Assembly (NCBI GenBank): GCA_002238605.1
Contig: MPMR01000022.1
Span: forward strand, 1 to 64,000
Reading direction: 5' to 3'
Source: BD2-11 clade cluster bacterium bin43
GTDB taxonomy: Bacteria; Gemmatimonadota; Gemmatimonadetes; Longimicrobiales; Gaopeijiaceae
Length of the DNA stretch: 64,000 nucleotides
The notes beneath the pieces were generated by a model. That model had not been told where the DNA came from, did no database searches, and was given only the letters and a program-made list of their open reading frames with translations. A program made the position numbers and the translations under genes. Of this stretch, positions 6,327-23,633 are shown one piece after another. Positions within the stretch are counted from its first letter, which is position 1. Each line of letters starts with the position of its first letter.

Positions 6327-6551
6327 ATGCCGAAGGGGCAACCTAAGGACTACCGGAGCGATTACCGCTTCATTGAACTCACGCTGAGACGGTACGACTA
6401 CCACAACCTGGCAAAGAAGACGAAGACGTCGGTCAGGAAGAAGCTGATGGAGGCCACCGGTCTTTCGCGCGCCCAGATCACGCGGCTGATCCGGCAGCAC
6501 CGCGAGACCGGCCGGATCATGGACGGAAGGAAATGGAAGCGGGGTGAATGA
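6327..6551 (+). pseudogene. N-terminal fragment of an integrase-core/transposase-type protein
   Basis: 74 residues starting MPKGQPKDYRSDYRFIE and containing a predicted helix-turn-helix (KKLMEATGLSRAQITRLIRQ) followed by HRETGRI. This matches from memory the N-terminus of a family of integrase-core proteins in which the DNA-binding region is followed by an rve catalytic domain. Here the frame stops at TGA (6549-6551) and no catalytic core follows. It is therefore best read as a decayed mobile-element remnant at the edge of the accessory stretch. A short functional DNA-binding protein cannot be excluded. No terminal inverted repeats were found. Confidence 0.6.
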
Positions 6552-8865: not shown

Positions 8866-9080
8866 CAACGTCTCCTCAGCTTTGGACCGGCGGGGACCGG
8901 CGCGCTTCACGGCGTTGCGTCGGCGTCGCCTGAGCCGCCGGTAAACGGTTCTAATTGTACACAAGATGCACGCTGCTGTCTTCGGCCCGGGCCGTCCGCC
9001 GGATCCTCGCGCCGGCCCTGAGCAGAATCGCCAAAGCCGCGCAACCTCGGGGCCAAGGCGTCGCATGCGCACCCTACCGA

Positions 9081-10433
9081 TCAGAAGAAGCGACGGCCCC
9101 GCCGACCACCCATCCTCGGGTTCACAACATTGTTCGTGACGGACCCGAACGTGAAGCTGAAGCCCACTTCGAAATCGAACTCGAAGTCCGTGCCGAGCTG
9201 GCGGCGCTGGAGCAGCACGTCCTCGTCGGCGATGTCCTCGCGCGGCACGTACAGCTGGTCCTTCACGCGGGCCACGCCTCCGCTCACGCTCAGATTCAGC
9301 CCGCGGGCGAGCCGGTACTCGACGCGCCCGAGCAGGTCGATGCGGTGCAGCGCCGGATCGTGCAGGAACGTCGACGCCTCGAGCACGCTGTTGATCTCGC
9401 CCCAGGGCTGCCGGAACTGCGCCGCGACCTCCAGTCGTTGTTCGGCGTGGGTCTCCCCGGTCCGGCCGAAGAGCGTGATCTCCTCGTAGTCGAACGATGC
9501 GAGGCCGAGCGAATAGAGCACCGTGATCTGGCGGCGTGTGGATTCGGCGTAAGGAAACAGGCTGTATTGGACGGCCGGCGCGGCCCGGATCGCGAGGTCC
9601 TGATTCACGCGCGTGGAGGTGAGCGCCGAGGCGCGCACGCCCGCGGACCAGCGGGGCCCGAGACTCCAGACGATCAGTCCCTCGTGGCTGATGTTGCGCG
9701 ACGTGCTCGTGAGCATCGAGCCGTCGCTGAACTCGAACCGGTCCCGCTCCCAGCGCCCGTAGGAGTTGAGGTCGATCTTGAGGTCCTCCGTGGTCCGGCT
9801 CGCCGAGAGCGAACCGTCGAAGGACCGCGAGCTCCGCCGACTCTCGACCTCCCATTCCGTCCCGACGCTCGTGCGGAAGACCCACAGGTTCCAGGGGTCG
9901 TCGACAGCAGCGAGCTGCTGCGCGGCTCCCGACGGGGGGGCCGTGTAGCGGAGGTCCAGGAGCGGTCCCGCCGCGGTACCGGACACGTAGGGGACGAGCC
10001 CCAGCTTGAACGCGCGCGTCAGACCCTCGCGCACCTCGTCGTCGGTGTCGCTCTCTCGCGCGACGAAGCGCAGCGTGTCCTGCTGATCGGCCCTGCCGCC
10101 GCGCCCCATGAAGAAGACATCGTAGGCCGCGCCGCCGCCGCCGGTGCCTTCCGATGTCACCAGCACGTGCAGGTCGGCGTCCGCGCGGTCGCGCACGTAG
10201 TCGACGAACGAGACCTCGCGCCGGAAGTGGTCGAAGTCGCAGCGCTCGCAATCGAAGAAGACGCGGAGCAGTCTGTCGGCGTGCTCGCCGTCGCCGTTTT
10301 GCTCCTGGGCCGAAGCGCTGCCGTAGGCCAGGGCGAGCGCCACGCACGCGAGGCTCGCGCGCACGAGAGTGCCCCGCCAGCGCGTTCCGCGCGACCGCCC
10401 CTCGCCGATACGTCCCACCGTCGATGACCGCAT
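9081..10433 (-). CDS. Outer-membrane beta-barrel protein, function unknown
   Basis: 450 aa from ATG 10431-10433, chosen over an upstream ATG because GAGGAGGGG lies directly before it. Signal peptide ending ALAYGSASAQ. Residues about 45-115 form a soluble N-terminal region with a Cys pair (FFDCERCDFDHFRREVSFVD), and about residues 150-450 alternate hydrophobic/polar residues like barrel strands (NISHEGLIVWSLGPRWSAG, DFEFDFEVGFSFTFG). It ends RRGRRFF with a terminal Phe. The CxxC pair and globular N-terminal segment may be a small periplasmic domain. No transport substrate can be read. A perfect 17-bp palindrome lies 23 bp upstream of the start. Confidence 0.65.
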   Translation of the reverse strand: MRSSTVGRIGEGRSRGTRWRGTLVRASLACVALALAYGSASAQEQNGDGEHADRLLRVFFDCERCDFDHFRREVSFVDYVRDRADADLHVLVTSEGTGGGGAAYDVFFMGRGGRADQQDTLRFVARESDTDDEVREGLTRAFKLGLVPYVSGTAAGPLLDLRYTAPPSGAAQQLAAVDDPWNLWVFRTSVGTEWEVESRRSSRSFDGSLSASRTTEDLKIDLNSYGRWERDRFEFSDGSMLTSTSRNISHEGLIVWSLGPRWSAGVRASALTSTRVNQDLAIRAAPAVQYSLFPYAESTRRQITVLYSLGLASFDYEEITLFGRTGETHAEQRLEVAAQFRQPWGEINSVLEASTFLHDPALHRIDLLGRVEYRLARGLNLSVSGGVARVKDQLYVPREDIADEDVLLQRRQLGTDFEFDFEVGFSFTFGSVTNNVVNPRMGGRRGRRFF

Positions 10434-10455
10434 CTCCCCTCCTCGCAACACGTAA

Positions 10456-10472
10456 GTGACCCATCGGGTCAC
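10456..10472. promoter_or_regulatory. Perfect palindrome, candidate operator
   Basis: GTGACCCATCGGGTCAC: 7-bp perfect arms around a 3-nt centre, 23 bp upstream of the start of the outer-membrane barrel gene. The size and symmetry fit a dimeric repressor site (GntR/TetR type), but no such regulator is adjacent. Confidence 0.4.
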
Positions 10473-10833
10473 GAAAGCTCGCGAAGGCGCTCGGCCGAAT
10501 GGTGGAGTGCAGGTCAGTCAGTTGTCAGGGAGTTGTGATCTCCGGCGGAGCGCCGTCGCGCAGTTGGTCATCTCCAAGGGCGGGAGGCGCACGGTCAGCT
10601 TGGTCAAGGCGTGTTTGGGGATCGGTCCCACGGGTCCGTCACCACCGACTCGCCGGAACCGGCCGCCAGCTATCTCCCGAACGCGGAGAACGCACAAGGA
10701 GAGAGGTGTGAACAAGTGGCGGCCTCGAAGGGGCAGCGAGGACTGGTGAGCCGGGCGAGCATCGCGGACCTCGTCGCCTTCCGGATCGCGTATCCTGGCC
10801 AGAAGGCCGATCCTTCGGGAGAGGAGACCTCGA
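10473..10833. other. Gene-free interval
   Basis: About 360 bp between divergent-side and coiled-coil genes. Short open frames (for example a GTG-started 33-codon frame ending near 10847) have no ribosome site or recognisable protein, so none is called. Confidence 0.4.
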
Positions 10834-11181
10834 CTACTTCGATCTGACGAAGTGCGCGCCGATCGCGTCGACCGCGGCTTGTAGAGCGCCGAGCTGTTTG
10901 TGGACCTCGGTGTCCAGTCCGTCGACCCTCTTGGCGAGGCGGTCCTCCAGCCCGTCGAGCGAGTATTGAATCTGCTTGAACCTGGCCGACACCATTTCGA
11001 TCCTGCTCCCGAGTTCGACGTTCCCCTTGTCCGCGTGCGCCTCCACGTCGTCGATCCGCGTGCCGAGCTTCGATTCCAATACGGAGATCCGTCGGTTCAG
11101 TTGATCGAACCCGGTGACGACGCGACGCTCAAGCTTGGCCAGCGCGACACCCAGTTCCTGAATCGCGAAACTGTCCTTCAT
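10834..11181 (-). CDS. Coiled-coil protein of unknown function
   Basis: 115 aa from ATG 11179-11181, chosen because an AGGAGC ribosome site precedes it. The sequence is nearly all heptad-like (LAKLERRVVTGFDQLNRRIS, VLESKLGTRIDDVEAHADK, YSLDGLEDRLAKRVDGLD) and recalls Apolipoprotein/Bdr-like or tail-fibre-like coiled-coil proteins. No membrane segment or signal peptide. It is alone between gene-free stretches in the accessory region. A phage-associated or CorA-like coiled-coil accessory role is only a guess. Confidence 0.55.
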   Translation of the reverse strand: MKDSFAIQELGVALAKLERRVVTGFDQLNRRISVLESKLGTRIDDVEAHADKGNVELGSRIEMVSARFKQIQYSLDGLEDRLAKRVDGLDTEVHKQLGALQAAVDAIGAHFVRSK

Positions 11182-11360
11182 CGTCTGCCTCGCTCCTTTC
11201 GCATCCGCATGCGCATTACGCGCCCGGACCGGGTCCCCTTCCGTCAACGGCCACCAGCGCGACCGGGATTGCCGCAAGCCTCGAGACCCTCGCGAGCGTG
11301 TGCCCTCGGGAGCCATGTAAGCTCAGGGTCAAGGGGGTAGGGTCCGGTCAGGTGATAGAA

Positions 11361-11564
11361 TCACGACCGGGTGCCTCCGCTGCCTTCCGTAACTTCGCGG
11401 ATCGTCGGCTCTGCGATCCGCTTCCGATAAGCTGGTGACCTCTTGCAGAGCCCGCAGGTGACCTTGGCAGTGTCTCGCGTGACTTGCGGCTCGCGCTTCA
11501 GTCGCTGCTGATGGTACATCCCGCAGGCCGTGTAACCGAAAGCGCCTACGAGATTCAGTTTCAT
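11361..11564 (-). CDS. Small Cys-rich (zinc-knuckle-like) protein
   Basis: 67 aa. It contains TACGMYH followed 20 residues later by VTCGLCKR, an arrangement like the short zinc-binding proteins found on phages and integrative elements (a single Cys, then CxxCxR). The ATG (11562-11564) overlaps the stop of the relic kinase frame upstream, so it may use a borrowed ribosome site; none of its own is clear. Role unknown. Its location beside a relic and an integrase fits mobile-element cargo. Confidence 0.4.
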   Translation of the reverse strand: MKLNLVGAFGYTACGMYHQQRLKREPQVTRDTAKVTCGLCKRSPAYRKRIAEPTIREVTEGSGGTRS

Positions 11565-11708
11565 CGTCCGTCTCTGCCGTGGAGGTTAATTCGGGTGTTC
11601 AGCGCCGCCTCGGTCTCCGCCCGGCCCCCCGCGGCGCGGCTCAACTCGGAGACGCGCCGCTCGAGCGCCTCGATCCGGTGTCGCAGCGAACGCTGAATCG
11701 TCTGTCAC
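11561..11708 (-). pseudogene. Relic 5' end of a second kinase gene
   Basis: Minus-strand translation gives HRIEALERRVSELSRAA, nearly identical to residues 11-26 of the kinase at 3747-6098 (DRIGALERRVSELSRAA). The position of the kinase start is GTG (11706-11708) here, and a one-base indel downstream puts that start out of frame with the homologous coiled segment. The homologous frame has TGA just upstream and ends at TGA 11561-11563 after about 40 codons. All sensor, kinase and regulator domains are absent. It is therefore the remains of a paralogue, kept together with its promoter. Confidence 0.65.
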
Positions 11709-11832
11709 CGCTCGTCCTATTTCACGAAAAAGGCATCATCGCCAAATATTCGCCGATGCGGGCCGGTTGCTCGCCCACGGATCGGATTTGGAAGTGTACA
11801 AAATAAAGGTCACACGCCATACACGTCAAACC
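11631..11832 (-). repeat. Promoter/leader/5'-end block, copy B (pairs with 6022-6223)
   Basis: Diverged second copy of the block described at 6022-6223, in the same orientation and of nearly the same length. Upstream of this point the two loci stop resembling each other. Confidence 0.75.
11801..11829 (-). promoter_or_regulatory. Candidate promoter in the relic block
   Basis: Minus strand: -35 TTGACG (11824-11829), 17-bp spacer, -10 TTATTT (11801-11806). It matches the layout upstream of the intact kinase gene. It could now drive the small Cys-rich gene at 11361-11564. Confidence 0.4.
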
Positions 11833-12172
11833 AGTCGCCACCTTCCCCTCCGGGACCCATCTCCTAGCCCTAGAGAGGCCCGGTTCGGCGTCGACGAATC
11901 GGGCGGCCGTGGCCTAACCGCAAGATCGCTGGCGACTTGTAGCGTCTGCCGCATGTCACGTCCAAGGGCGTTCCGTGTCCGGCCGACCTCGAAGTCAAAT
12001 ACACACCTCCGGTACGGCACCGGGGTGGCCCGATTCCTCGTCAGAACACCGTCCGCCCGAGCCGCTCCGACCGCGAAGCGTAAGGGCTCCCGCGCCTTCT
12101 CGCGCCCCTTCAGAATGTGCGATCTGCGAGTTGATCGGACGTTTGGCCGCGACGATCCCTCTGGCCTAACTT
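11833..12172. other. Gene-free interval
   Basis: About 340 bp between the relic promoter and the lipoprotein gene. Open frames exist on both strands because of high GC, but none has a credible start or protein. Confidence 0.4.
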
Positions 12173-12772
12173 GTGGGGAACTTCCTCGCAGACGGAGGTG
12201 CTCCCCTGTTCCCACGACTACTCCTCGTCCTCGTGCTCGGGTGCGCTGGATGCGACAGCGTCCTCGACTTCCTAGGCATCGACCCGAACGAGACTCTTGA
12301 AGTGCCCCATCCGAACTCCACGGGTCGAGGTCCCCGTTACAACAACTCCCTGGAAGACCAACAGGGTCTCGCCGGCCTTCAAGTCACGCTCACCGGATCC
12401 GTTGATCGCACTTTCACGGCAGAGGACCTCCCGATCAGGCCCTTCAGCATAGCAGCCAGAGGCTCGATCTCCGCCGACGTGTCCCTGATCGTCAACGGGA
12501 CGGTGATCGCGCAGGGCATGGCGTCGTGGGCACTGAGGCCGAACACCCGGTGGATAATGCGATTCGAGCGCGGAACACCGAACCCTGCCCCCTACATGCC
12601 GCCCGTCCCCGGTTACAAGCCGAACTATTGCGATTGGCCGGGTTGCGAAAGCTACTGGCGCTTCGGGATCAGCGAGGACCACAGAAACTCCGAAGACGAG
12701 GCGCTTTGGGTCGTGGTGTTTGGGCACGAGCCCTGCCCCGAGGGTAGCATCTGCCAACTAAAAGCGAGCTAA
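12173..12772 (+). CDS. Lipoprotein, unknown function
   Basis: 199 aa from GTG 12173. Residues about 13-27 are hydrophobic (LFPRLLLVLVLGCAGC) and carry a lipobox-like VLGC/CAGC, so export and lipidation are likely. The mature part has a region that may be a beta sandwich (LQVTLTGSVDRTFTAEDLP, ADVSLIVNGTVIAQGMASWAL) and a Cys-containing C-terminal part (YCDWPGCESYW, EPCPEGSICQ) that could form disulfides. The start is uncertain: a GGAGGTG at about 12196-12202 has only non-ATG codons after it. It sits just before the broken integrase, so it is probably accessory cargo. Confidence 0.55.
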   Translation: MGNFLADGGAPLFPRLLLVLVLGCAGCDSVLDFLGIDPNETLEVPHPNSTGRGPRYNNSLEDQQGLAGLQVTLTGSVDRTFTAEDLPIRPFSIAARGSISADVSLIVNGTVIAQGMASWALRPNTRWIMRFERGTPNPAPYMPPVPGYKPNYCDWPGCESYWRFGISEDHRNSEDEALWVVVFGHEPCPEGSICQLKAS

Positions 12773-12930
12773 GGGACCGGGGAGGGCTCCGAGCGTCTCT
12801 TCCGGTTGAAATCGGGCGAGCGCCCTGGGCCGCGTTCCGGGAGTGTTGGCCAGTCTGGCCAAGACGCTCGTTTCGGGCGAAATTCCGTGTGCGCAGATCG
12901 TGCAGTCCATCTTCGAGGAGGAATCGAACG

Positions 12931-14091
12931 ATGGCACGCACGAAACGAAGTCGGCGCTCGTACGGCGCCGGCGAGTGGGGCCGGAACCGGGTCCGGGTGT
13001 TCCCCGATCCCAAGACCGGCTTGTACCAGATCGAGTGGCGCGAGAACGGTCGCAGGCTCACCCGGTCGCTGAAGCACCGCGACTAGGTGAGGGCCAAGCG
13101 GCAGGCGGACGAGTTCGCCGCCGGGTTCGCCGGGCCGGAACTGAACGGCAGGAAGGACGCCGAGCCCGAGCCGCTCACCCTGGAAGCGCTTTTTGACATC
13201 TACGCCGAAGAGGTGACGCCCACCAAGGCGGCGACGTCTCAGAGGTCGGATCGAGCCGCGACGAAGATGTTCCTGCGGTTCTTCGGCCGGGACCGGAAGC
13301 CCGCAACGCTTTCTCAGCGTGATTGGGACCGGTTCATCCGGGCGCGGCGCGCGGGCAACATCGGCCCCAGCGGAAGGCCCGTGTCCGACCGGACCATCGA
13401 AAGCGATCTGAAGTTCCTGATCGCCGTCTGCAACTGGGCCAGCAAGTCCAAGGACGAGCAGGGCCGCCCGCTCCTCGGCTCCAACCCTCTCAAGGGCCTC
13501 AAGACGCCCACGGAGAAGAACCCGACCCGCGTCGTGCTTGCCGAGGAGGAGTATGAGGCGCTCCTGAAGGTGTCGCGCCGGGTCGACTGGCGCTTCCATG
13601 TCGCGCTCGTGCTCGCGCACGAGACCGGGCACCGGATCGGGGCCATCCGCAAGCTCCGGTGGAGCGACATCGACCTCGAAGGCGGAGTGGTGCTGTGGCG
13701 CGCGGAGCACGAGAAGACAGGGTACGAGCACCGTACACCCGTGACCGCCGAGGCACTTGCGGTCTTGGAGGAGGCGCTCACGAGGAACCAGGGCAACGGG
13801 GACTCTCCGGTGCTGCCTGCGCCGAGGGATGCTACGAGATGCGCGGGCCGGACGTTGGTGCGCTACTGGTGGAACCGCGCCCAGAAGCTCGCGGGGCTGG
13901 AACCCAAGCGCGGTAGAGGCTGGCACTCGCTGAGACGCAAGTTCGCCTCCGACCTCATGGAACAACCGCTCAAGGTGCTCTGCGAGCTGGGGGGCTGGAA
14001 GACGGCCAAAACGGTGCTCCAGTGTTATCAGCGAGCCGACGAAGGACAGCTTCGGAAGGCACTGGAAGCCCGCCGGAGACCTCGCGGCTGA
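12931..14091 (+). pseudogene. Tyrosine-type site-specific integrase interrupted by an in-frame amber codon
   Basis: ATG 12931 with a strong GGAGGAA site begins an N-terminal arm (MARTKRSRRSYGAGEWGRN; VFPDPKTGLYQIEWRENGRR). The frame meets TAG at 13084-13086 (codon 52) and then stays open to TGA at 14089-14091. The downstream part has the SAM-like core-binding region (about 90-170) and the catalytic set: Arg235 (TGHRIGAIRKL), His332-x-x-Arg335 (HSLRR), a Gly-Gly-Trp motif (ELGGWKTAKT) and the nucleophile Tyr366 (LQCYQRAD). From the reading LKHRD*VRAKRQADEF, the TAG most simply replaces a TGG Trp codon. A GTG directly follows the stop, so reinitiation is possible but would lack the arm domain. 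No attachment site could be firmly placed. Confidence 0.8.
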
Positions 14092-14301: not shown

Positions 14302-16221
14302 GTGTCCGCAGCATACTCCCCCGATACCCTCCCCGGCCTGCTCGCCCGGCGAGCCGCCCGCCGCCCCGACGAGGTCGCGCTGCGCGAGAAGGAGTTCGGC
14401 ATCTGGCAGGAGATCACCTGGGCGGAGTACCTCGGCCGGGTGCGCGCCTTCTCGCTGGGGCTGACGGAGCTGGGCGCCGACGAAGGGAACCGCATCGCGA
14501 TCATCGGGGACAACCGGCCCGAATGGATCATCGCCGAACTCGCGGCCCAGGCCGGAGGCGTTCTGCCCCTCGGGCTCTACCAGGACTCGATCGCGGACGA
14601 GCTTGCCCGCATGCTCGAGGCCGCCGAGGCCCGCATCATCGTCGCCGAGGATCAGGAGCAGGTGGACAAGGTGCTGGAAGTGCGGGACCGCCTGCCCGGA
14701 CTCCGGTACATCATCTACTACGACTCCCGCGGAATGTACGGGTACGAGGCAGCGGGGCTCATGTCCTTCGAGGAGGTCGAGGCGCTCGGCGAACGCGCGC
14801 ACCGCCGCTCGCCGGAGGAGTTCGATCGGAGGCTCGCTGCCCTTCAGCCCGGCGACATCGCGCTCCTGTGCACGACATCGGGCACGACCAGCAGCCCCAA
14901 GCTGGCCATGCTCTCGCACGAAAACCTGATTGTGATGGCGTCCCAACTGCGCGCCGTGGACGCGATGAACCCGGGTGACGAGTTCGTCTCGTTCCTGCCC
15001 CTGGCCTGGATCGGAGAACAGATGATCGGCGTGGCCAGCGGACTCCTGACCGGGTTCACCGTCAACTTCCCCGAGGAGACGGCGACCGCGCGCAAGGACA
15101 TGCGCGAGATCGGGCCGGCCTTCCTGATGTCCCCGCCCCGCATCTGGGAGAACATGGTCTCCGACGTGCAGGTCATGGCCGCGGACACCACCCGCCTGAA
15201 GCGCTGGCTCTACGGCTGGGCCATGAAGCAGGGCGCGGCCACCGCCGAAGCCCGGTTCCGGGGACGGAGTGTCGGCCTGGTCCGGCGCCTGAGCCACCGC
15301 TTTGCCGACTGGGCGGTCTTCCACCCCATCCGCGACCAACTCGGGCTCAGCCGGGTGCGGCGCGCGTACACGGGAGGCGCGGCGCTGGGCCCGGACGTCT
15401 TCCGCTTCTACCACGCCATCGGGGTCAACGTGAAGCAGCTCTACGGCCAGACCGAGGTGTCGGGGATTTCCGTCGTGCACAGGGACGGCGACATCCGCTT
15501 CCAGACGGTGGGCGTGCCGCTGTCCCGCACCGAGATCCGCATTTCGGACGATGGAGAGATTCTCTGCCGGAGTCCGGCGGTCTTCCAGGGATACTTCCGC
15601 AATCCGCAGGCCACCGCGGAGACGCTCGAGAACGGCTGGCTGCACTCGGGCGATGCCGGCTATTTCGACGAACACGGCCACCTGGTGGTGATCGACCGCC
15701 TGGCCGACGTGATGCAGCTGGCCGACGGAACCCACTTCTCCCCGCAGTTCGTCGAGAACAAGCTCAAGTTCAGCCCCTACGTCGCCGAAGCGGTCGTCTT
15801 CGGGGGCTCGGGGACTCCGTTTGTTACGGGGATGATCGCAATCGACATGGAGAACGCCGGGCAGTGGGCGGAGCGCCGCCGCATCCCCTACACGACCTTC
15901 ACCGACCTGGCCCGGCGCCCCGAGCTGTACGCCCTCGTGCGCGAGCATGTTGCGGAGGTAAACGACGAACTGCCCGAGGCCGCCCGCATCCGCCGCTTCC
16001 TGCTGCTGCACAAGGAGTTGCACGCCGACGACGCCGAACTGACCCGCACGCGCAAGATCCGGCGCCGCCACATCGCAAGCCGCTTTGCGGATATCATCGG
16101 CGCGCTGCAGGGGGACGCCGATTCGATCACGGTGGCGACCGAGATCACGTACCAGGACGGACGCACTGCGGCGGTCGAGCACGCGCTGCGCATCGAGACG
16201 ATGGACCGGAGCAGGCCATGA
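14302..16221 (+). CDS. Long-chain acyl-CoA synthetase-type AMP-binding enzyme
   Basis: 639 aa from GTG 14302. ANL-superfamily adenylate-forming enzyme. The phosphate loop is seen as CTTSGTTSSPK (about residue 195-205), with MLSHENL after it, the YGQTE motif (A5, KQLYGQTEVSG), the adenine-binding GGAALGPDV region, and the A7/A8 region (WLHSGDAGYFDEHGHLVVIDR). The final catalytic Lys region reads TRTRKIRRRHI. It would activate a carboxylic acid with ATP and CoA. It is the first gene of a plus-strand cluster with Liv-type ABC transporter genes, a recurrent arrangement in which the transporter is thought to import an organic acid that the ligase activates. The substrate is not determined; fatty or aromatic acids are both possible. 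Confidence 0.85.
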   Translation: MSAAYSPDTLPGLLARRAARRPDEVALREKEFGIWQEITWAEYLGRVRAFSLGLTELGADEGNRIAIIGDNRPEWIIAELAAQAGGVLPLGLYQDSIADELARMLEAAEARIIVAEDQEQVDKVLEVRDRLPGLRYIIYYDSRGMYGYEAAGLMSFEEVEALGERAHRRSPEEFDRRLAALQPGDIALLCTTSGTTSSPKLAMLSHENLIVMASQLRAVDAMNPGDEFVSFLPLAWIGEQMIGVASGLLTGFTVNFPEETATARKDMREIGPAFLMSPPRIWENMVSDVQVMAADTTRLKRWLYGWAMKQGAATAEARFRGRSVGLVRRLSHRFADWAVFHPIRDQLGLSRVRRAYTGGAALGPDVFRFYHAIGVNVKQLYGQTEVSGISVVHRDGDIRFQTVGVPLSRTEIRISDDGEILCRSPAVFQGYFRNPQATAETLENGWLHSGDAGYFDEHGHLVVIDRLADVMQLADGTHFSPQFVENKLKFSPYVAEAVVFGGSGTPFVTGMIAIDMENAGQWAERRRIPYTTFTDLARRPELYALVREHVAEVNDELPEAARIRRFLLLHKELHADDAELTRTRKIRRRHIASRFADIIGALQGDADSITVATEITYQDGRTAAVEHALRIETMDRSRP

Positions 16222-16276
16222 CGGTGCCCGCTGACGCATTCCGCCGATCGCGCACGCCGCGCGGAGAACGCTGACC

Positions 16277-17149
16277 ATGGACATCTTCCTGCAGCTGACG
16301 GTCTCGGGGCTCAGCACGGGGATGATCTACGCGCTGGCGGCGGCCGGCTTCGTGGTCATCTACAAGGCCAGCGACGTCATCAACTTCGCCCAGGGCGACC
16401 TGCTTCTGCTGGGGACCTACCTGATCTTCTTCGCGGTGGCCCAGACCGGTCTGCCCTGGAGCCTCGGGGTACTGGTCACCCTGCTGCTGGCGGTCGCGGT
16501 GGCGCTGGCGGTCGAACGGCTGGTGCTGCGGCCGCTGGTGGGCGAGCCGATCATCTCGATGATCATGGTCACCATCGGGCTGTCGTCGGTGCTCAGGGGA
16601 GCGATCAACGCAATCTGGGGCCCGAATCCGCGGGCGTTCGAGTCCTTCCTGCCCGCGGGCGACATCGTCATCGGGCCCGCGGTGCTCTCGACGGGACGCG
16701 TGCTCTCCATTCCCATCGCCCTGGCCGTGCTCGCGGGGCTCGGGCTCTTCTTCCGCTACACCCGCGACGGCATCGCCATGCGCGCCATCGCCGACGACCA
16801 GCAGGCGGCGCTCAGCATGGGGATCAGCATCCCACGCGTGTTCGGGGTCGCCTGGGGGCTGGCGGCCGCCTCCGCCGCCATCGGCGGGATCATGCTCGGC
16901 AACATCGTGGGCGTGAGCCCCAACGTGGCGTCCATCGGCCTGCGGGTCTTTCCGGTGGTGATCCTGGGCGGACTGGACTCGATCGCGGGAGCGGTGATCG
17001 GCGGCGCCATCATCGGACTCCTCGAGGTCTACGTCGGCTTCTACGTGGGGCACGGGCTCAACCTGGTGGTCCCGTACCTGGTGCTCATCCTGGTGCTGAT
17101 GGTCCGGCCCTACGGGCTCTTCGGGAAGGAGATCATCGAGCGCGTATGA
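16277..17149 (+). CDS. Branched-chain amino acid-type ABC transporter permease, LivH family
   Basis: 290 aa with about eight hydrophobic segments. Typical LivH features: GLSTGMIYALAAAGFVVIYKASDVINFAQGD at the N-terminus (the 'INFAQGDL' motif), then VERLVLRPLVGEP, MRAIADDQQAALSMGI and the EAA-like loop region before GLDSIAGAVIGG. It forms one half of the membrane channel with LivM encoded next. It lies 55 bp after the acyl-CoA synthetase gene, where the LivG ATPase gene often sits in similar clusters but is missing here. Confidence 0.9.
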   Translation: MDIFLQLTVSGLSTGMIYALAAAGFVVIYKASDVINFAQGDLLLLGTYLIFFAVAQTGLPWSLGVLVTLLLAVAVALAVERLVLRPLVGEPIISMIMVTIGLSSVLRGAINAIWGPNPRAFESFLPAGDIVIGPAVLSTGRVLSIPIALAVLAGLGLFFRYTRDGIAMRAIADDQQAALSMGISIPRVFGVAWGLAAASAAIGGIMLGNIVGVSPNVASIGLRVFPVVILGGLDSIAGAVIGGAIIGLLEVYVGFYVGHGLNLVVPYLVLILVLMVRPYGLFGKEIIERV

Positions 17150-17246
17150 GGATGGCGCGACGGATCCGGGAGCGGGCGGAAACCCGCGAATTCGGGCGCT
17201 CGGTCGCCGTGGTCGGCGGGCGGCCCAGGGGCGCGGGGATGTCCCC

Positions 17247-18320
17247 ATGAGCATGGAGTGCGGGGTCTTTCACACCCGCTACGAGTCCGACATGGGACTC
17301 CGCCCGCGGCCTGCGCAGCGCATCCGCCTCGCGGTCCTGGCCGTCTTCGTGCTCGTCTTTCCGTTCCTGGCCAGCAGCTACTGGCTGGATCTGGCCAACC
17401 AGGTGGCCATCGCCACCGTGGGCGCCATCGGGCTGAACATCCTGGTGGGCTACACCGGGCAGATCTCGCTGGGGCAGGGCGCCTTCATGGCGATCGGGGC
17501 CTACACCGCCGGGCTCCTGACCCTGAACCTCGGGGTCCCATGGGGCGCGAGCGTGTTCTGCGCGTGCATCCTCACCGCCGTTGCGGGCACGTTCTTCGGG
17601 CTCCCCTCCCTGCGCCTCAAGGGCCTGTACCTGGCCATCGCCACCCTGGCCGCGCAGGAGATCGTGGAGTGGGGGATGACGCACTGGACGGCGGTCACGG
17701 GCGGAACCGAGGCCATCGTCCTGCCCGCCCCGCGCATCTTCGGCCTCCGCCTGAACAGCACCTTCAACTTCTACTGGCTGGCGGTGCTCACGGCGGCCGG
17801 GACCGCGCTCTTCGCGGCAAACCTCTTCCGCAGCCGCATCGGGCGCGCCTTCGAAGCGGTACGCGACCAGGACATCGCCGCGAGCGTCATCGGGGTGGAC
17901 CTCTTCCGTACCAAGCTGCTGGCCTTCGCGACTTCGTCGTTCTTCGTCGGCCTCGCGGGGGCGATGATCGCCTTCTACCGCAACATCATCACCTGGGAGC
18001 GCTTTACGCTGAACACGAGCATCGTCTACCTGGCGATGATCATCGTCGGGGGCCTGGGTTCGATTCGCGGGTCGTTTCTGGGTGCGGCGCTGATCACGCT
18101 GCTCCCGGCGCTGATCACCAACATGGGACGGGCCATCCAGGATACCGCTCCCCAGGCGGCTTCCCTTCTCCCCTACGGGCAGCAGGCGGTGTTCGGGATC
18201 GTGATCATCCTCTTCCTGGTTTTCGAGCCCCGGGGACTGTCCAAACTGTGGGGAAATGTGAAAGACTACTTTCATGTGTGGCCGTTTGCGTACCGGCGCG
18301 GCGAGAACCGGGCCAACTGA
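17247..18320 (+). CDS. Branched-chain amino acid-type ABC transporter permease, LivM family
   Basis: 357 aa. The N-terminus (CGVFHTRYESDMGL) is typical of LivM proteins of this cluster type. The central motif GLNILVGYTGQISLGQGAFMAIGAYT and the later VRDQDIAASVIGVD and GGLGSIRGSFLGA are hallmark LivM sequences. It partners LivH in the inner-membrane channel. Several in-frame ATGs lie near the start (17247, 17253); 17247 is used, but 17253 is equally possible. A 97-bp gap separates it from LivH. Confidence 0.9.
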   Translation: MSMECGVFHTRYESDMGLRPRPAQRIRLAVLAVFVLVFPFLASSYWLDLANQVAIATVGAIGLNILVGYTGQISLGQGAFMAIGAYTAGLLTLNLGVPWGASVFCACILTAVAGTFFGLPSLRLKGLYLAIATLAAQEIVEWGMTHWTAVTGGTEAIVLPAPRIFGLRLNSTFNFYWLAVLTAAGTALFAANLFRSRIGRAFEAVRDQDIAASVIGVDLFRTKLLAFATSSFFVGLAGAMIAFYRNIITWERFTLNTSIVYLAMIIVGGLGSIRGSFLGAALITLLPALITNMGRAIQDTAPQAASLLPYGQQAVFGIVIILFLVFEPRGLSKLWGNVKDYFHVWPFAYRRGENRAN

Positions 18321-18333
18321 AGGAATGAGAGAG

Positions 18334-19581
18334 ATGAGCGAGACAGACGGGGTGCAGGCCGGAGTCGGACGGCGTACAGCGGGATGGGAGAGGGCGTTGG
18401 CCGGGGGCCGGGCGCTGGTGGCCGCGGGCGCGGCAATGCTTCTGTGCGTCGCCTGCGGGGGCGACGGCGCCGATGCGGACGACAACAGCATCAAGGTGGG
18501 GGCCATCTTCGACCTCACCGGGCCCACCGCCGACGTGGGCACCGACTACGGCGACGGGGTGCGCGGCTTCGCGGACTGGGCCAACGCGCGGGGCGGAATC
18601 GAGGGACGTCCCATCGACCTCATCTTCCAGGACTACGGATACCAGGTCGACCGCGCCGAGCAGCTCTACAGCCAGTTCGTGAACGAGGGCGCGGTGATCT
18701 TCATGGGATGGGGCACCGGCGACACCGAAGCCCTGCGCATGCGCGTCGCCGAGGACGAGATCCCGTTCAGTTCCGCGTCCCTCTCGCATCGCCTCGGGGA
18801 TCCGGCGGAGGCCCCGTACAACTTCCTGCTGGCCACGACCTACAGCGACCAGTTCCGCATCGCGCTCGACTGGATCGCCCGGACCCACGGCGAAGGGACG
18901 CCCATCGTTGCGCTGATGCACAACGCAAGTCCCTTCGGGCTGTCGCCGGCGAATCAGGGCGGGATCGAGTTCGCCCGGGCGCGGGGCATCGACCTGACGC
19001 TCTACGAGATGCCGCGCGGAGCGGTGGACTTCACCGCCGAGTTCTCGCGCATCCGCCAGAGCGGCGCGCAGTACGTCGTGTTCCAGAACACCTCCGGGCC
19101 AGCGGCGGTGGCGCTCCAGAACGCGCGCAGCCTGGGACTGGACGTCACCTTCTTCTGCCTGAACTGGTGCTCGAACGCCCAGGTGGTGCGGTTGGCGGGA
19201 GACGCGGCGGAGGGCCTGATGGGGACGATGCCGTACGCGCCCCTGAGCGTGGATGTACCCGGCACGCGCGTCATCAGGGAGTACCTGGAGTCGAGGGGCG
19301 AGTCCGCCGAGGGGAAGACGAACGCGTACACGCAGGGCTGGTGGACCTTCGCGGCTTTCGCCGAAGGGATGCGGCGGGTGCTGGCGGAGGGAGACGAGCT
19401 TACCGGGGCGAACATCAAGGCCGCCCTGGAGACGCTGTCCGACTACGACATGGGCGGGGTCACCGCGCCCGTGACCCTGACTTCCACGAACCACCGCGGG
19501 TCCGGGGGACTGCGCATCTTCCGGGTCGAGGACGGGGCCTGGGTTCCGTTCACGGACTTCGTCCAGGCGCCGGCGTCCTGA
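18334..19581 (+). CDS. ABC transporter substrate-binding lipoprotein, LivK/Peripla_BP_6 type
   Basis: 415 aa from ATG 18334, chosen because AGGA lies 8 nt upstream. Signal peptide with lipobox-like MLLCVAC. The mature protein begins with a polar linker, then KVGAIFDLTGPTADVGTDYGDGVRGF, the standard start of a type I periplasmic binding fold, and later VFQNTSGPAAVALQNARSLG and GLMGTMPYAP. It should capture the substrate in the periplasm for the LivH/LivM channel. Binding residues cannot be assigned to a specific ligand. It overlaps no neighbour and lies 13 bp after livM. Confidence 0.9.
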   Translation: MSETDGVQAGVGRRTAGWERALAGGRALVAAGAAMLLCVACGGDGADADDNSIKVGAIFDLTGPTADVGTDYGDGVRGFADWANARGGIEGRPIDLIFQDYGYQVDRAEQLYSQFVNEGAVIFMGWGTGDTEALRMRVAEDEIPFSSASLSHRLGDPAEAPYNFLLATTYSDQFRIALDWIARTHGEGTPIVALMHNASPFGLSPANQGGIEFARARGIDLTLYEMPRGAVDFTAEFSRIRQSGAQYVVFQNTSGPAAVALQNARSLGLDVTFFCLNWCSNAQVVRLAGDAAEGLMGTMPYAPLSVDVPGTRVIREYLESRGESAEGKTNAYTQGWWTFAAFAEGMRRVLAEGDELTGANIKAALETLSDYDMGGVTAPVTLTSTNHRGSGGLRIFRVEDGAWVPFTDFVQAPAS

Positions 19582-20588: not shown

Positions 20589-21884
20589 GTGACCCGTCGG
20601 GACGGAGCGCATGGCGGCTCCCCGCGGGCGCGATCCGGCCCGGACCGGGACGCGGCGGAGGACTGGAACGCGCGGCAGGACCGGCTGGCGGCGCGGGCGG
20701 TTGCCTTGGGGGCCGGGCACAGTCCCGAGATCGGGCGACGGCTGGCGGCCGCCGGGATGTCGATCGGGGACGTCACCGGGGTCGCGGACCTGAGCGCGAT
20801 CCCGGTGCTGGCGAAGGACGACCTGCCCGCGCTGCAGGCCGCCGATCCGCCCTTCGGCGGGATGCTCGCCGTGGCTGCGGGCGCGCTGGCGCGCATCTAC
20901 CGCTCGCCGGGGCCGATCAACGACCCGCAGGGAGCCGGCGACGACTTCTGGCGCTTCGCGCCGGCCCTGCGCGCCGCCGGCTTCCGCCCCGGCGATGTGG
21001 TGCTGAACAGCTTCTCGTACCACCTGACGCCGGGCGGCCTGATGCTCGACGGCGGACTGCGCGCGGCGGGATGCGTGGTGATCCCCGGGGGCGTGGCGGC
21101 CACCACCGCCCAGATCGAGGCGGCGCGCGCGGCGGGCGCGACCGGCTACACCGGCACGCCCCAGTTTCTGCTGACCCTGCTCGAGCGGGCAGCAGAGTCG
21201 GGTGGGCCGGGTGGGCCGCCCGGGTTCGAGCGCGCGCTGGTGACGGGCGCGCCCCTGCCGCCTTCGTTGCGCGCCCGCCTCCAGGACGACTTCAGCGTGG
21301 ACGTCTACCAGGCCTATGCCGCGGCGGACACCGGGCTGCTCGGCTACGAGTGCGCCGGGAAGGACGGGTGGCACGTGGCGCCGGGCGTGGTGGTCGAGGT
21401 GCTGGCCCCCGGGGACGATCGGCCGGCCGCGGAGGGGGAGGCGGGGCAGGTGGTGGTCACCAGCCCCAACCAGGTCTACCCGCTGGTGCGCTTCGGCACC
21501 GGCGACCTGTCCGCGTGGAACCGCGCGCCCTGCCCGTGCGGCCGCCCCGGCCCCCGCCTGGCCGGCTTCCTGGGGAGGGTGGGGGAAGGCGTCAAGGTGA
21601 AGGGCATGTTCGTGCACCCGCGGGAGCTGGCCGCGGCGCTGGGGTCCAATCCGGCCGTAGCGCGCTACCAGGCGGTGGTGACCGACGAGGGCGCGCGCGA
21701 CGTGTTCACCGTGCGGGTCGAGCCGGCACCCGGGGCCGTGGTCGACGAATCCGAACTCACCGCGAGCATCCGCGAGGCCGTGAAGATCCGCCCGGTCGTG
21801 GAGGTGGTTCCCACCGGGACCATCCCTGACGATCCACGCCCGCTGGTGGACGCACGGGAGGACGAGCGCCGCGGCCGTCGATAG
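20589..21884 (+). CDS. Phenylacetate-CoA ligase-like AMP-forming enzyme
   Basis: 431 aa from GTG 20589. PaaK/CapK-like adenylate-forming fold: IPVLAKDDLPALQAADPPFGG, VLNSFSYHLTPGG, ATGYTGTPQFLL, DVYQAYAAADTGLLGYEC (A5-like), VRFGTGDLSA, CPCGRPGPRLAGFLGRVGEGVKVKGMFVHP (A8-like). The usual Ser/Thr/Gly-rich phosphate loop is replaced by IYRSPGPINDP, as I recall for the clade found beside Liv-type clusters. Its role is presumably to activate the imported carboxylate, perhaps a different one from the first ligase. It ends in TAG six bases before the truncated transporter frame, which happens to be in the same frame. Confidence 0.8.
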   Translation: MTRRDGAHGGSPRARSGPDRDAAEDWNARQDRLAARAVALGAGHSPEIGRRLAAAGMSIGDVTGVADLSAIPVLAKDDLPALQAADPPFGGMLAVAAGALARIYRSPGPINDPQGAGDDFWRFAPALRAAGFRPGDVVLNSFSYHLTPGGLMLDGGLRAAGCVVIPGGVAATTAQIEAARAAGATGYTGTPQFLLTLLERAAESGGPGGPPGFERALVTGAPLPPSLRARLQDDFSVDVYQAYAAADTGLLGYECAGKDGWHVAPGVVVEVLAPGDDRPAAEGEAGQVVVTSPNQVYPLVRFGTGDLSAWNRAPCPCGRPGPRLAGFLGRVGEGVKVKGMFVHPRELAAALGSNPAVARYQAVVTDEGARDVFTVRVEPAPGAVVDESELTASIREAVKIRPVVEVVPTGTIPDDPRPLVDAREDERRGRR

Positions 21885-21890
21885 AGGGTT

Positions 21891-23633
21891 GTGTGCGGCA
21901 TCCTGGCGGCGGTCATCGGGGCCTTCCTGCTGGGATCGGGGCCCGAGGAGATCCGGCCCGAGGGCCTGAACCTGACCTCGACGATCGCCAACCCCGACGG
22001 GTTCGGTGTCGTCTTCGCCACCTGCTTTCCCGCCTTCACCGGCATGATCGCGGGGCTCGGGCTGTCGGGAGATCTCAAGAACCCCATGCGATCGATCCCG
22101 CTGGGCACGATCGGGACGACGTTTGCCGGCATGGCCGTCTACTCGCTGGTCGCGATCAAGCTCGCGCAGAGCGCTACTCCGGATGTCCTGGCGGAGGACC
22201 AGTTCGCCATGGCCCGCATCGCGCTCTGGGGCCCGTCCATCTACATCGGACTTGCCGCGGCGGCCTTCTCCTCCGCGCTCGGCTCGGTCATGGTTGCCCC
22301 GCGCACGCTGCAGGCGCTGGCTCGCGACCGCGTCTTCCCGGTTGCCAGGGTCAACCGACTCCTCGCCACCGGGCGGGGCGACGCGGGCGAGCCCATCAAC
22401 GCCACCTACGTCTCGGTGGCGCTGGCGGCGGTGTTCGTGGCGCTTGGCGACATCGACTTCATCGCCCAGATCCTGAGCATGTTCTTCATGGTGACGTACG
22501 GCACCCTCTGCTCCGTGTCGTTCCTGGAATACTTCGCTGGCAACCCCTCGTACCGCCCGACCTTCCGCTCCCGCTGGTACATATCGCTGGTCGGCGCGGT
22601 GATGTGCGTGCTCATGATGATCCAGATGAGCGCCGTGTACGCGCTGCTCGCGATGGCGATCATGCTCGTCATCTACCTGGGCCTCAGACGCTCGCGGCGC
22701 GGGGAACGCGATCTGGCCGCGATCCTCCAGGGAGCGATGTTCCAGTTGGTCCGCAGGCTTCAGATCATGCTCCAGAAGAACCAGAGCGCGCAGCAGGACG
22801 GCGGGTGGCGACCGTCGTTCGTGGCGCTCACGCAGTTCGGCGACCGCCGCGTGGCCCAGTTCGACCTGTTGCGCTGGATCTCCCACCGACACGGGTTCGG
22901 CCACTTCGTCCAGCACATGAAAGGTGAGTATGCCCTGGACACGGAGTTGCTGGCCCGTGCCCAGCTCACGAAGCTGGTGAAGCGTTCCGACCTCAGCCGG
23001 GCGGGGACATTCGTCGACACACTGATCGCGCCCTCCTTCGAGAACGCGGTCACGCAGGCCCTCCAATACCCCGGCATATCGGGGCTGCCCAACAACAGCA
23101 TCCTGCTGGAATTCGACCAGGAGCATCCGGAGGAGATCCCGAGGCTGGAGCGGGCCATGCTCCTTGCGGCCTCCTCCCGGTTCAACGTGGTGGTCCTGCG
23201 CTCCAGCACGTTTCGTTTCGGCTACCGCTCGTCGATCCATGTCTGGTTGACCCCGGAGACCCTGCCCAACGCGGCGATGATGCTGATGCTCGCCTACATC
23301 ATCGTCGGTCACCCCGAATGGAGAACCGCCGAGATCCGCGTCTTCGCGTGCATCGGCACGGACGGGGATGAGCATGAGGCCGACCGGTTGTCCGCCCTCG
23401 TCGACCAGGGGCGCCTGCCCATCGGGAGCAAGAATATCGAAACGCTGCCCGTCGAATCGCAGGCCAGAATCGAGACCGAAGTGGAATACCGGTCATCCGA
23501 CGCGGATCTGGTGATCGCCGGGATTTCGGCGGAGCAGATGAAGGGAGGAAGCCTGACCGAGGTTCTCCAGAGCCACGGGGCCGCGAACGACATCGTGTTC
23601 GTACACGCTGTGGAAGAGATAGTCATTGACTGA
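21891..23633 (+). pseudogene. 5'-truncated cation-chloride cotransporter (SLC12/APC type)
   Basis: 580 aa from GTG 21891. The visible part begins around transmembrane segment 5/6: FPAFTGMIAGLGLSGDLKNPMRSIPLGT (the 'SGDLK-P-SIP-GT' signature of the family), then SSALGSVMVAPRTLQALARDRVFP, SFLEYFAGNPSYRPTFR, two more hydrophobic segments, and a large soluble C-terminal domain with SDADLVIAGIS. The first four or five membrane segments, about 200 or more residues, are absent: an in-frame TAG (21882-21884) and the upstream ligase gene occupy that place. A deletion junction or an assembly misjoin near 21885 is likely. A transporter without the first half should not be functional. Confidence 0.75.

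Follow-up and report, generated by a model that had tools for sequence, protein, structure and literature searches.

The cotransporter gene that begins in mid-protein directly behind a ligase gene in the window (here the whole stretch of 64,000 nucleotides that was analyzed) very likely results from a deletion, specific to this lineage, of about 1.6 kb. The deletion would have removed an entire mechanosensitive-channel-like gene on the opposite strand, together with the first ~212 codons of the cotransporter gene, and the rest of the latter would now adjoin the ligase end. The loss probably took place as two deletions, or else as one complex event, in which some 26 bp from the channel gene would have been left between the break points. 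The remnant of the cotransporter gene is best seen as a recent pseudogene whose decay would so far be invisible, and its translation, if there is any, would depend on weak re-initiation behind the ligase stop. Among the genomes and loci examined, the short form is found only in the window. The features at this site, in window coordinates, are:

20589 to 21884, forward strand: AMP-forming ligase gene (Pfam AMP-binding, E 3.4e-10, and AMP-binding_C_2, E 2.9e-6)
21860 to 21885, forward strand: probable retained scrap (~26 bp) from the 5' end of the deleted channel-like gene, based on a local match at the homologous site
21885 to 21886, no strand: junction left by the deletion, inside the cotransporter gene; for 7 of 8 loci from the same genus, similarity begins at 21886
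21891 to 23633, forward strand: 580-codon remnant of a cation-chloride-cotransporter-like (SLC12/APC) gene, based on Pfam, solved-structure and same-genus matches

The ligase frame encodes 431 amino acids and ends with a TAG stop at 21882-21884; from its pair of Pfam domains, we take it to be phenylacetate-CoA-ligase-like. It is the final gene of a branched-chain amino acid ABC-transporter set (two permeases, a binding protein and an ATPase), and orthologs with 84-88% identity are found in 8 of the 10 genomes of the same genus (congeners). The last ligase codons and the TAG sit within the join sequence, which departs from the congeners past position 21862. Similarity on the ligase side stops at 21860-21862 in the six congener loci that include the ligase, and on the cotransporter side the one locus in which it does not restart at 21886 is L048, where it restarts at 21891. 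The ligase and the remnant share one frame (21891 minus 20589 is divisible by 3), with TAG AGG GTT between them.

The initial annotation had described a cotransporter frame that starts in mid-protein right behind the ligase stop, has lost its first membrane segments, and yet runs free of stops with recognizable family homology; all of this was borne out. The frame opens with a GTG at 21891, 6 bp past the ligase stop, and continues through 580 codons with no stop or frameshift. Its alignment with six congeners is gapless over 1748 bp at 92-93% identity, and the remnant is therefore not a chance open reading frame. The protein corresponds to residues 213-792 of the 792-aa cotransporter of the congener G003, in which the hydropathy segments ahead of TM6 (249-271) lie at about 60-89, 89-118, 139-166, 177-204 and 202-231. 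Because the window protein begins at residue 213 of this relative, TM1-4 are gone: the 212 missing residues take in the first four hydrophobic segments and the start of the fifth, leaving most of TM5, everything that follows from TM6 on, and the soluble C-terminal domain. The Pfam AA_permease match of the 580-aa product opens at profile position 192 of 470, as against position 2 for the full-length relative.

The best solved-structure match of the remnant is KCC2 (window-protein residues 38-492, E 2.8e-35), with which the TM6 segment and the C-terminal domain align, as is expected of an SLC12 homolog. The SLC12 K-Cl cotransporters (KCC; for example structures 7d14 and 6m23) are thus homologous to the remnant from TM6 into the C-terminal domain, whereas the TM1-4 part of their fold is missing in the window protein. 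The complete SLC12 transport core, made up of the inverted repeats TM1-5 and TM6-10, is not present, and the TM1 region that is matched by the full-length relative is absent. In the SLC12 family, TM6-10 repeat TM1-5 in inverted orientation, and the ions are coordinated by TM1 together with TM6 (PMC10043231). Because the loss of TM1-4 also takes away the half of the TM1/TM6 ion site that TM1 contributes, transport by the remnant has very probably been lost.

The comparison with relatives covered 59 genomes, namely the source genome (G000) and 58 others, including the 10 congeners; some cotransporter match was found in 47 of the 59. The source genome, a draft of 65 contigs that is 97.3% complete, has one cotransporter copy plus two weak matches. 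A close cotransporter ortholog (90-97% identity) is found in 8 of the 10 congeners, and in all 8 it occupies an open stop-to-stop frame, of 769-810 codons. A close ortholog was sought and not found in G007 (98% complete), which gave weak cotransporter matches only, and a search of G006 (67% complete) returned no cotransporter match. Six congeners (loci L043, L044, L045, L046, L049 and L050, with L049 a near-duplicate of L043) carry on one contig the ligase, the opposite-strand channel-like gene and a full cotransporter. In L043, from G003, the two genes concerned are:

10179 to 10991, opposite strand: mechanosensitive-channel-like gene, 270 aa (Pfam MS_channel_1st_1, E 2.9e-19)
11044 to 13422: full-length cotransporter, 792 aa

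Full-length cotransporters of the genus, such as that at L043:11044-13422, resemble the window gene in standing behind the ligase and beside a citrate-transporter-like gene, and they are 96% identical to the window protein over the 580 shared residues. Unlike the window gene, they keep the N-terminal 212 residues (in G003) with TM1-4, and their loci have the opposite-strand channel-like gene between ligase and transporter. The sequence between the matching flanks amounts to 1550, 1702, 1751, 1640, 1550 and 1631 bp in L043, L044, L045, L046, L049 and L050, respectively; at the same place the window has about 23 bp.

The initial annotation had left open whether a deletion or an assembly misjoin was responsible. 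The first of these readings is supported by the 1550-1751 bp that all six congeners carry in addition; the second is not, because both flanks are collinear with the relatives and lie on the same contig in all six, whereas a misjoin would bring together flanks that are not adjacent in relatives. A misjoin of distant loci is therefore very unlikely. On single contigs of L043, L044, L046 and L049, collinearity extends over window 14.3-21.86 kb and from 21.886 to about 30 kb, and in L050 it runs from window 20.85 kb to 29.4 kb. L045 is collinear in the same way, with a second change downstream: at its positions 15805-19429 (G002:C16), window 23.63-29.47 kb, which carries citrate-transporter-like genes, has no similarity in the 20 kb fetched, and similarity resumes at window 29468. 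The proposal that a deletion joined the ligase gene to the middle of the transporter gene thus stands, with the refinement that the whole opposite-strand channel-like gene was lost as well and that a scrap of it was probably kept.

Relatives with the same short form at this place would, as the initial annotation pointed out, have implied a stable shortened protein; the short form was found in none of the 8 congeners that have the gene. It was likewise absent from the 79 assessable database loci among the best 80 of 305; several of the 80 are, judging by length, the same contigs as the congener loci, so that the two sets overlap. In these 79 loci the one-segment match reaches residue 58 or lower of the 792-aa protein; in the remaining one, L149, the match begins at base 63 of the contig. 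When the DNA across the junction was used as a query, a full-length match was obtained solely in the source genome, and the congeners matched its two sides apart, one side, or neither.

The missing N-terminal half, which the initial annotation suggested might lie elsewhere in the assembly, was searched for as DNA and as protein and was not found there. The DNA of the missing block (L043:10080-11720) matched the two flanks in the source genome and nothing else, with 40 of 92 first-look candidates scored. The channel protein gave no match in the source genome, and the same query matched 9 of the 10 congeners, the tenth being the incomplete G006. Likewise, the missing 212 cotransporter residues gave no protein match in the source genome, and they matched 8 of the 10 congeners, all except G006 and G007. 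The two other cotransporter matches of the source genome (28% and 31%) were considered as the missing half and rejected; they cover residues 46-291 and 43-228 of the part still present, and one of them was scanned as an amino acid permease. An intact gene at the same site in relatives, with the missing part absent from the source genome, is one mark of a truncation pseudogene made by deletion, and it is present here.

Several other loci differ around the ligase and the channel gene. In L047 (G005:C277, about 8983-9473), the channel gene beside an intact cotransporter seems split into two overlapping frames (73-78% identity), and G005 has a better copy of the channel gene on another contig. In L072 (G007:C95), the ligase is followed after 4282 by other genes, and the channel gene is on a separate contig. 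L073 (G004:C280) has a 77-bp stretch of the ligase tail twice, at 6395-6471 and 12551-12627, the copies being 96% identical. The ~6 kb between them includes a 1630-aa protein that was named leucine-rich-repeat-like/Big-like by eye, and the 3' part of the channel gene follows the second copy, at the contig end. The end of the ligase gene seems to be a recurrent point of rearrangement, as G004 is also broken there. Farther afield, L094-L154 have full-length cotransporters with 57-66% identity in MAGs labeled Poribacteria, Latescibacterota, Aminicenantes, Bryobacterales, Acidobacteria, Terriglobia, Vicinamibacteria, a Dehalococcoidia and further Gemmatimonadota; several of these MAGs presumably come from sponge sample series. 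Such a distribution may have arisen by exchange between host-associated bacteria that belong to different phyla. The terms chloride and mechanosensitive are absent from the main text of PMC10469786 (Palauibacterales), an order in which the window is not placed here.

Substitution patterns bear on the age of the remnant. Over the 580 codons, dN/dS is 0.060-0.074 between the window and five congeners and 0.006-0.042 among the congeners themselves. With the outgroups L080, L081, L085, L086 and L084, the window dN is 0.0375, 0.0375, 0.0263, 0.0407 and 0.0537, as compared with congener ranges of 0.0371-0.0404, 0.0344-0.0372, 0.0297-0.0313, 0.0362-0.0391 and 0.0507-0.0524 in the same order. The window value is thus slightly above the congener range in three cases, inside it in one and below it in one, and the membrane part alone gives the same pattern. 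The window has 5 private amino-acid changes and the congeners 0-1; private codons number 5 synonymous plus 2 nonsynonymous in the window and 3-10 plus 0 in the congeners. When the mean dN/dS of the window versus the others is divided by that among the others, the ratio is 2.2 for the cotransporter (0.067 over 0.030), 1.6 and 2.0 for two intact downstream transporters, and 0.8 to 1.5 for five upstream genes, with trimmed stretches used for four of the genes, 4 or 5 congeners per gene beside the window, the near-duplicate L049 omitted, and L047 and L048 unused. The cotransporter tops all eight genes, but barely. Because the two intact downstream neighbors also rise, the elevated value of the cotransporter is not specific to it, and the remnant has no clear specific sign of decay beyond that of its intact neighbors. 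Hence either the deletion took place recently, relative to the split from the congeners, or constraint still acts on the remnant, and the former is favored.

The sequence at the join suggests that the event was not a single clean excision. In 4 of 5 congeners, one and the same homologous site gives the best local match to the 23-mer at 21863-21885. Taken singly this match is weak, because shuffled 23-mers do as well in 13, 17, 155, 15 and 19 of 300 cases (L043, L044, L045, L046 and L050), and random window stretches of block length do as well in 28 of 193, 24 of 193, 161 of 197, 21 of 190 and 29 of 191 (same order). GC-matched 26-mers from the window do as well in 2 of 600 cases by best score and 1 of 600 by summed score on the same strand, and in 5 and 5 of 600 on both strands, but the limits of the 26-mer were picked after the match had been seen, and the match is therefore suggestive only. 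The corresponding numbers (best, then summed score, of 600) are 89 and 23 on the same strand and 146 and 42 on both strands for 23-mers, and 6 and 6 and then 12 and 10 for 31-mers. Overall, there is modest support for the view that a short piece of the lost channel gene has probably survived at the join. If so, two deletions or one complex event would be called for, and the stop codon of the ligase would come from the scrap. A repeat-mediated deletion was also considered and rejected, because the break points in five congeners lack any long direct repeat; the longest exact word common to the 80-bp break flanks is 5-9 bp, and it lies off the break points.

The deletion might be apparent rather than real if the assembler skipped about 1.6 kb of genuine sequence or followed a minority path created by strain variation. 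The fragmented, draft state of the source genome lends this some credit. However, words as short as those shared by the break flanks could hardly cause a repeat collapse, the missing block was found on no other contig of the source genome, and a ligase end that resembles a diverged scrap, itself of modest support, would not arise from a simple skip; an artifact of this kind is accordingly judged unlikely. The deletion could also be carried by only part of the population.

If the deletion is real, the remnant need not be dead. The part from TM5 onward with the C-terminal soluble domain could have been kept as a stable shortened protein with a new or regulatory role. The uninterrupted frame, the low dN/dS against the five congeners and an outgroup dN near that of intact orthologs all fit this idea, and the position of the GTG just past the ligase stop would permit coupled translation. 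Nevertheless, the short form occurs in no relative examined, half of the ion site is gone, and a deletion far more recent than the divergence would also leave dN/dS low. The window value is moreover 2.2 times that of the congeners, with 5 private changes, though the neighbors rise too, and the sole SD-like stretch (identified by eye) ends only 2 bp ahead of the GTG. We therefore hold a stable shortened protein to be quite improbable, and equally improbable its more specific form, a half-transporter made by re-initiation behind the ligase stop whose C-terminal domain would be regulatory and which would not transport. Least probable of all, to the point of being negligible, is a ligase-transporter fusion made by read-through of the single TAG. 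The order ligase, TAG, AGG, GTT, GTG is in register as such a fusion would need, but joining in register has a one-in-three chance of occurring anyway, no fusion is seen in the relatives examined, and the channel gene stands between the two genes in the six single-contig congeners.

Truncation pseudogenes made by deletion are an ordinary kind in bacterial genomes; in them, as here, one end of a gene is lost together with a neighbor, and the rest stays open-framed. The window remnant differs from the ordinary case in having no clear decay as yet and a probable scrap of the neighbor at the join. Gene loss at this site is probably ordinary biology, and it looks recent. Since a channel-like gene and a cotransporter were lost at one site, two possible osmotic functions would have been removed, to judge from their families. 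For annotation, the product should be regarded as a truncated, probably inactive cotransporter, and beyond annotation the finding has little importance. It does illustrate that comparison with congeners can largely resolve a gene that starts in mid-protein as a real deletion, without recourse to reads.
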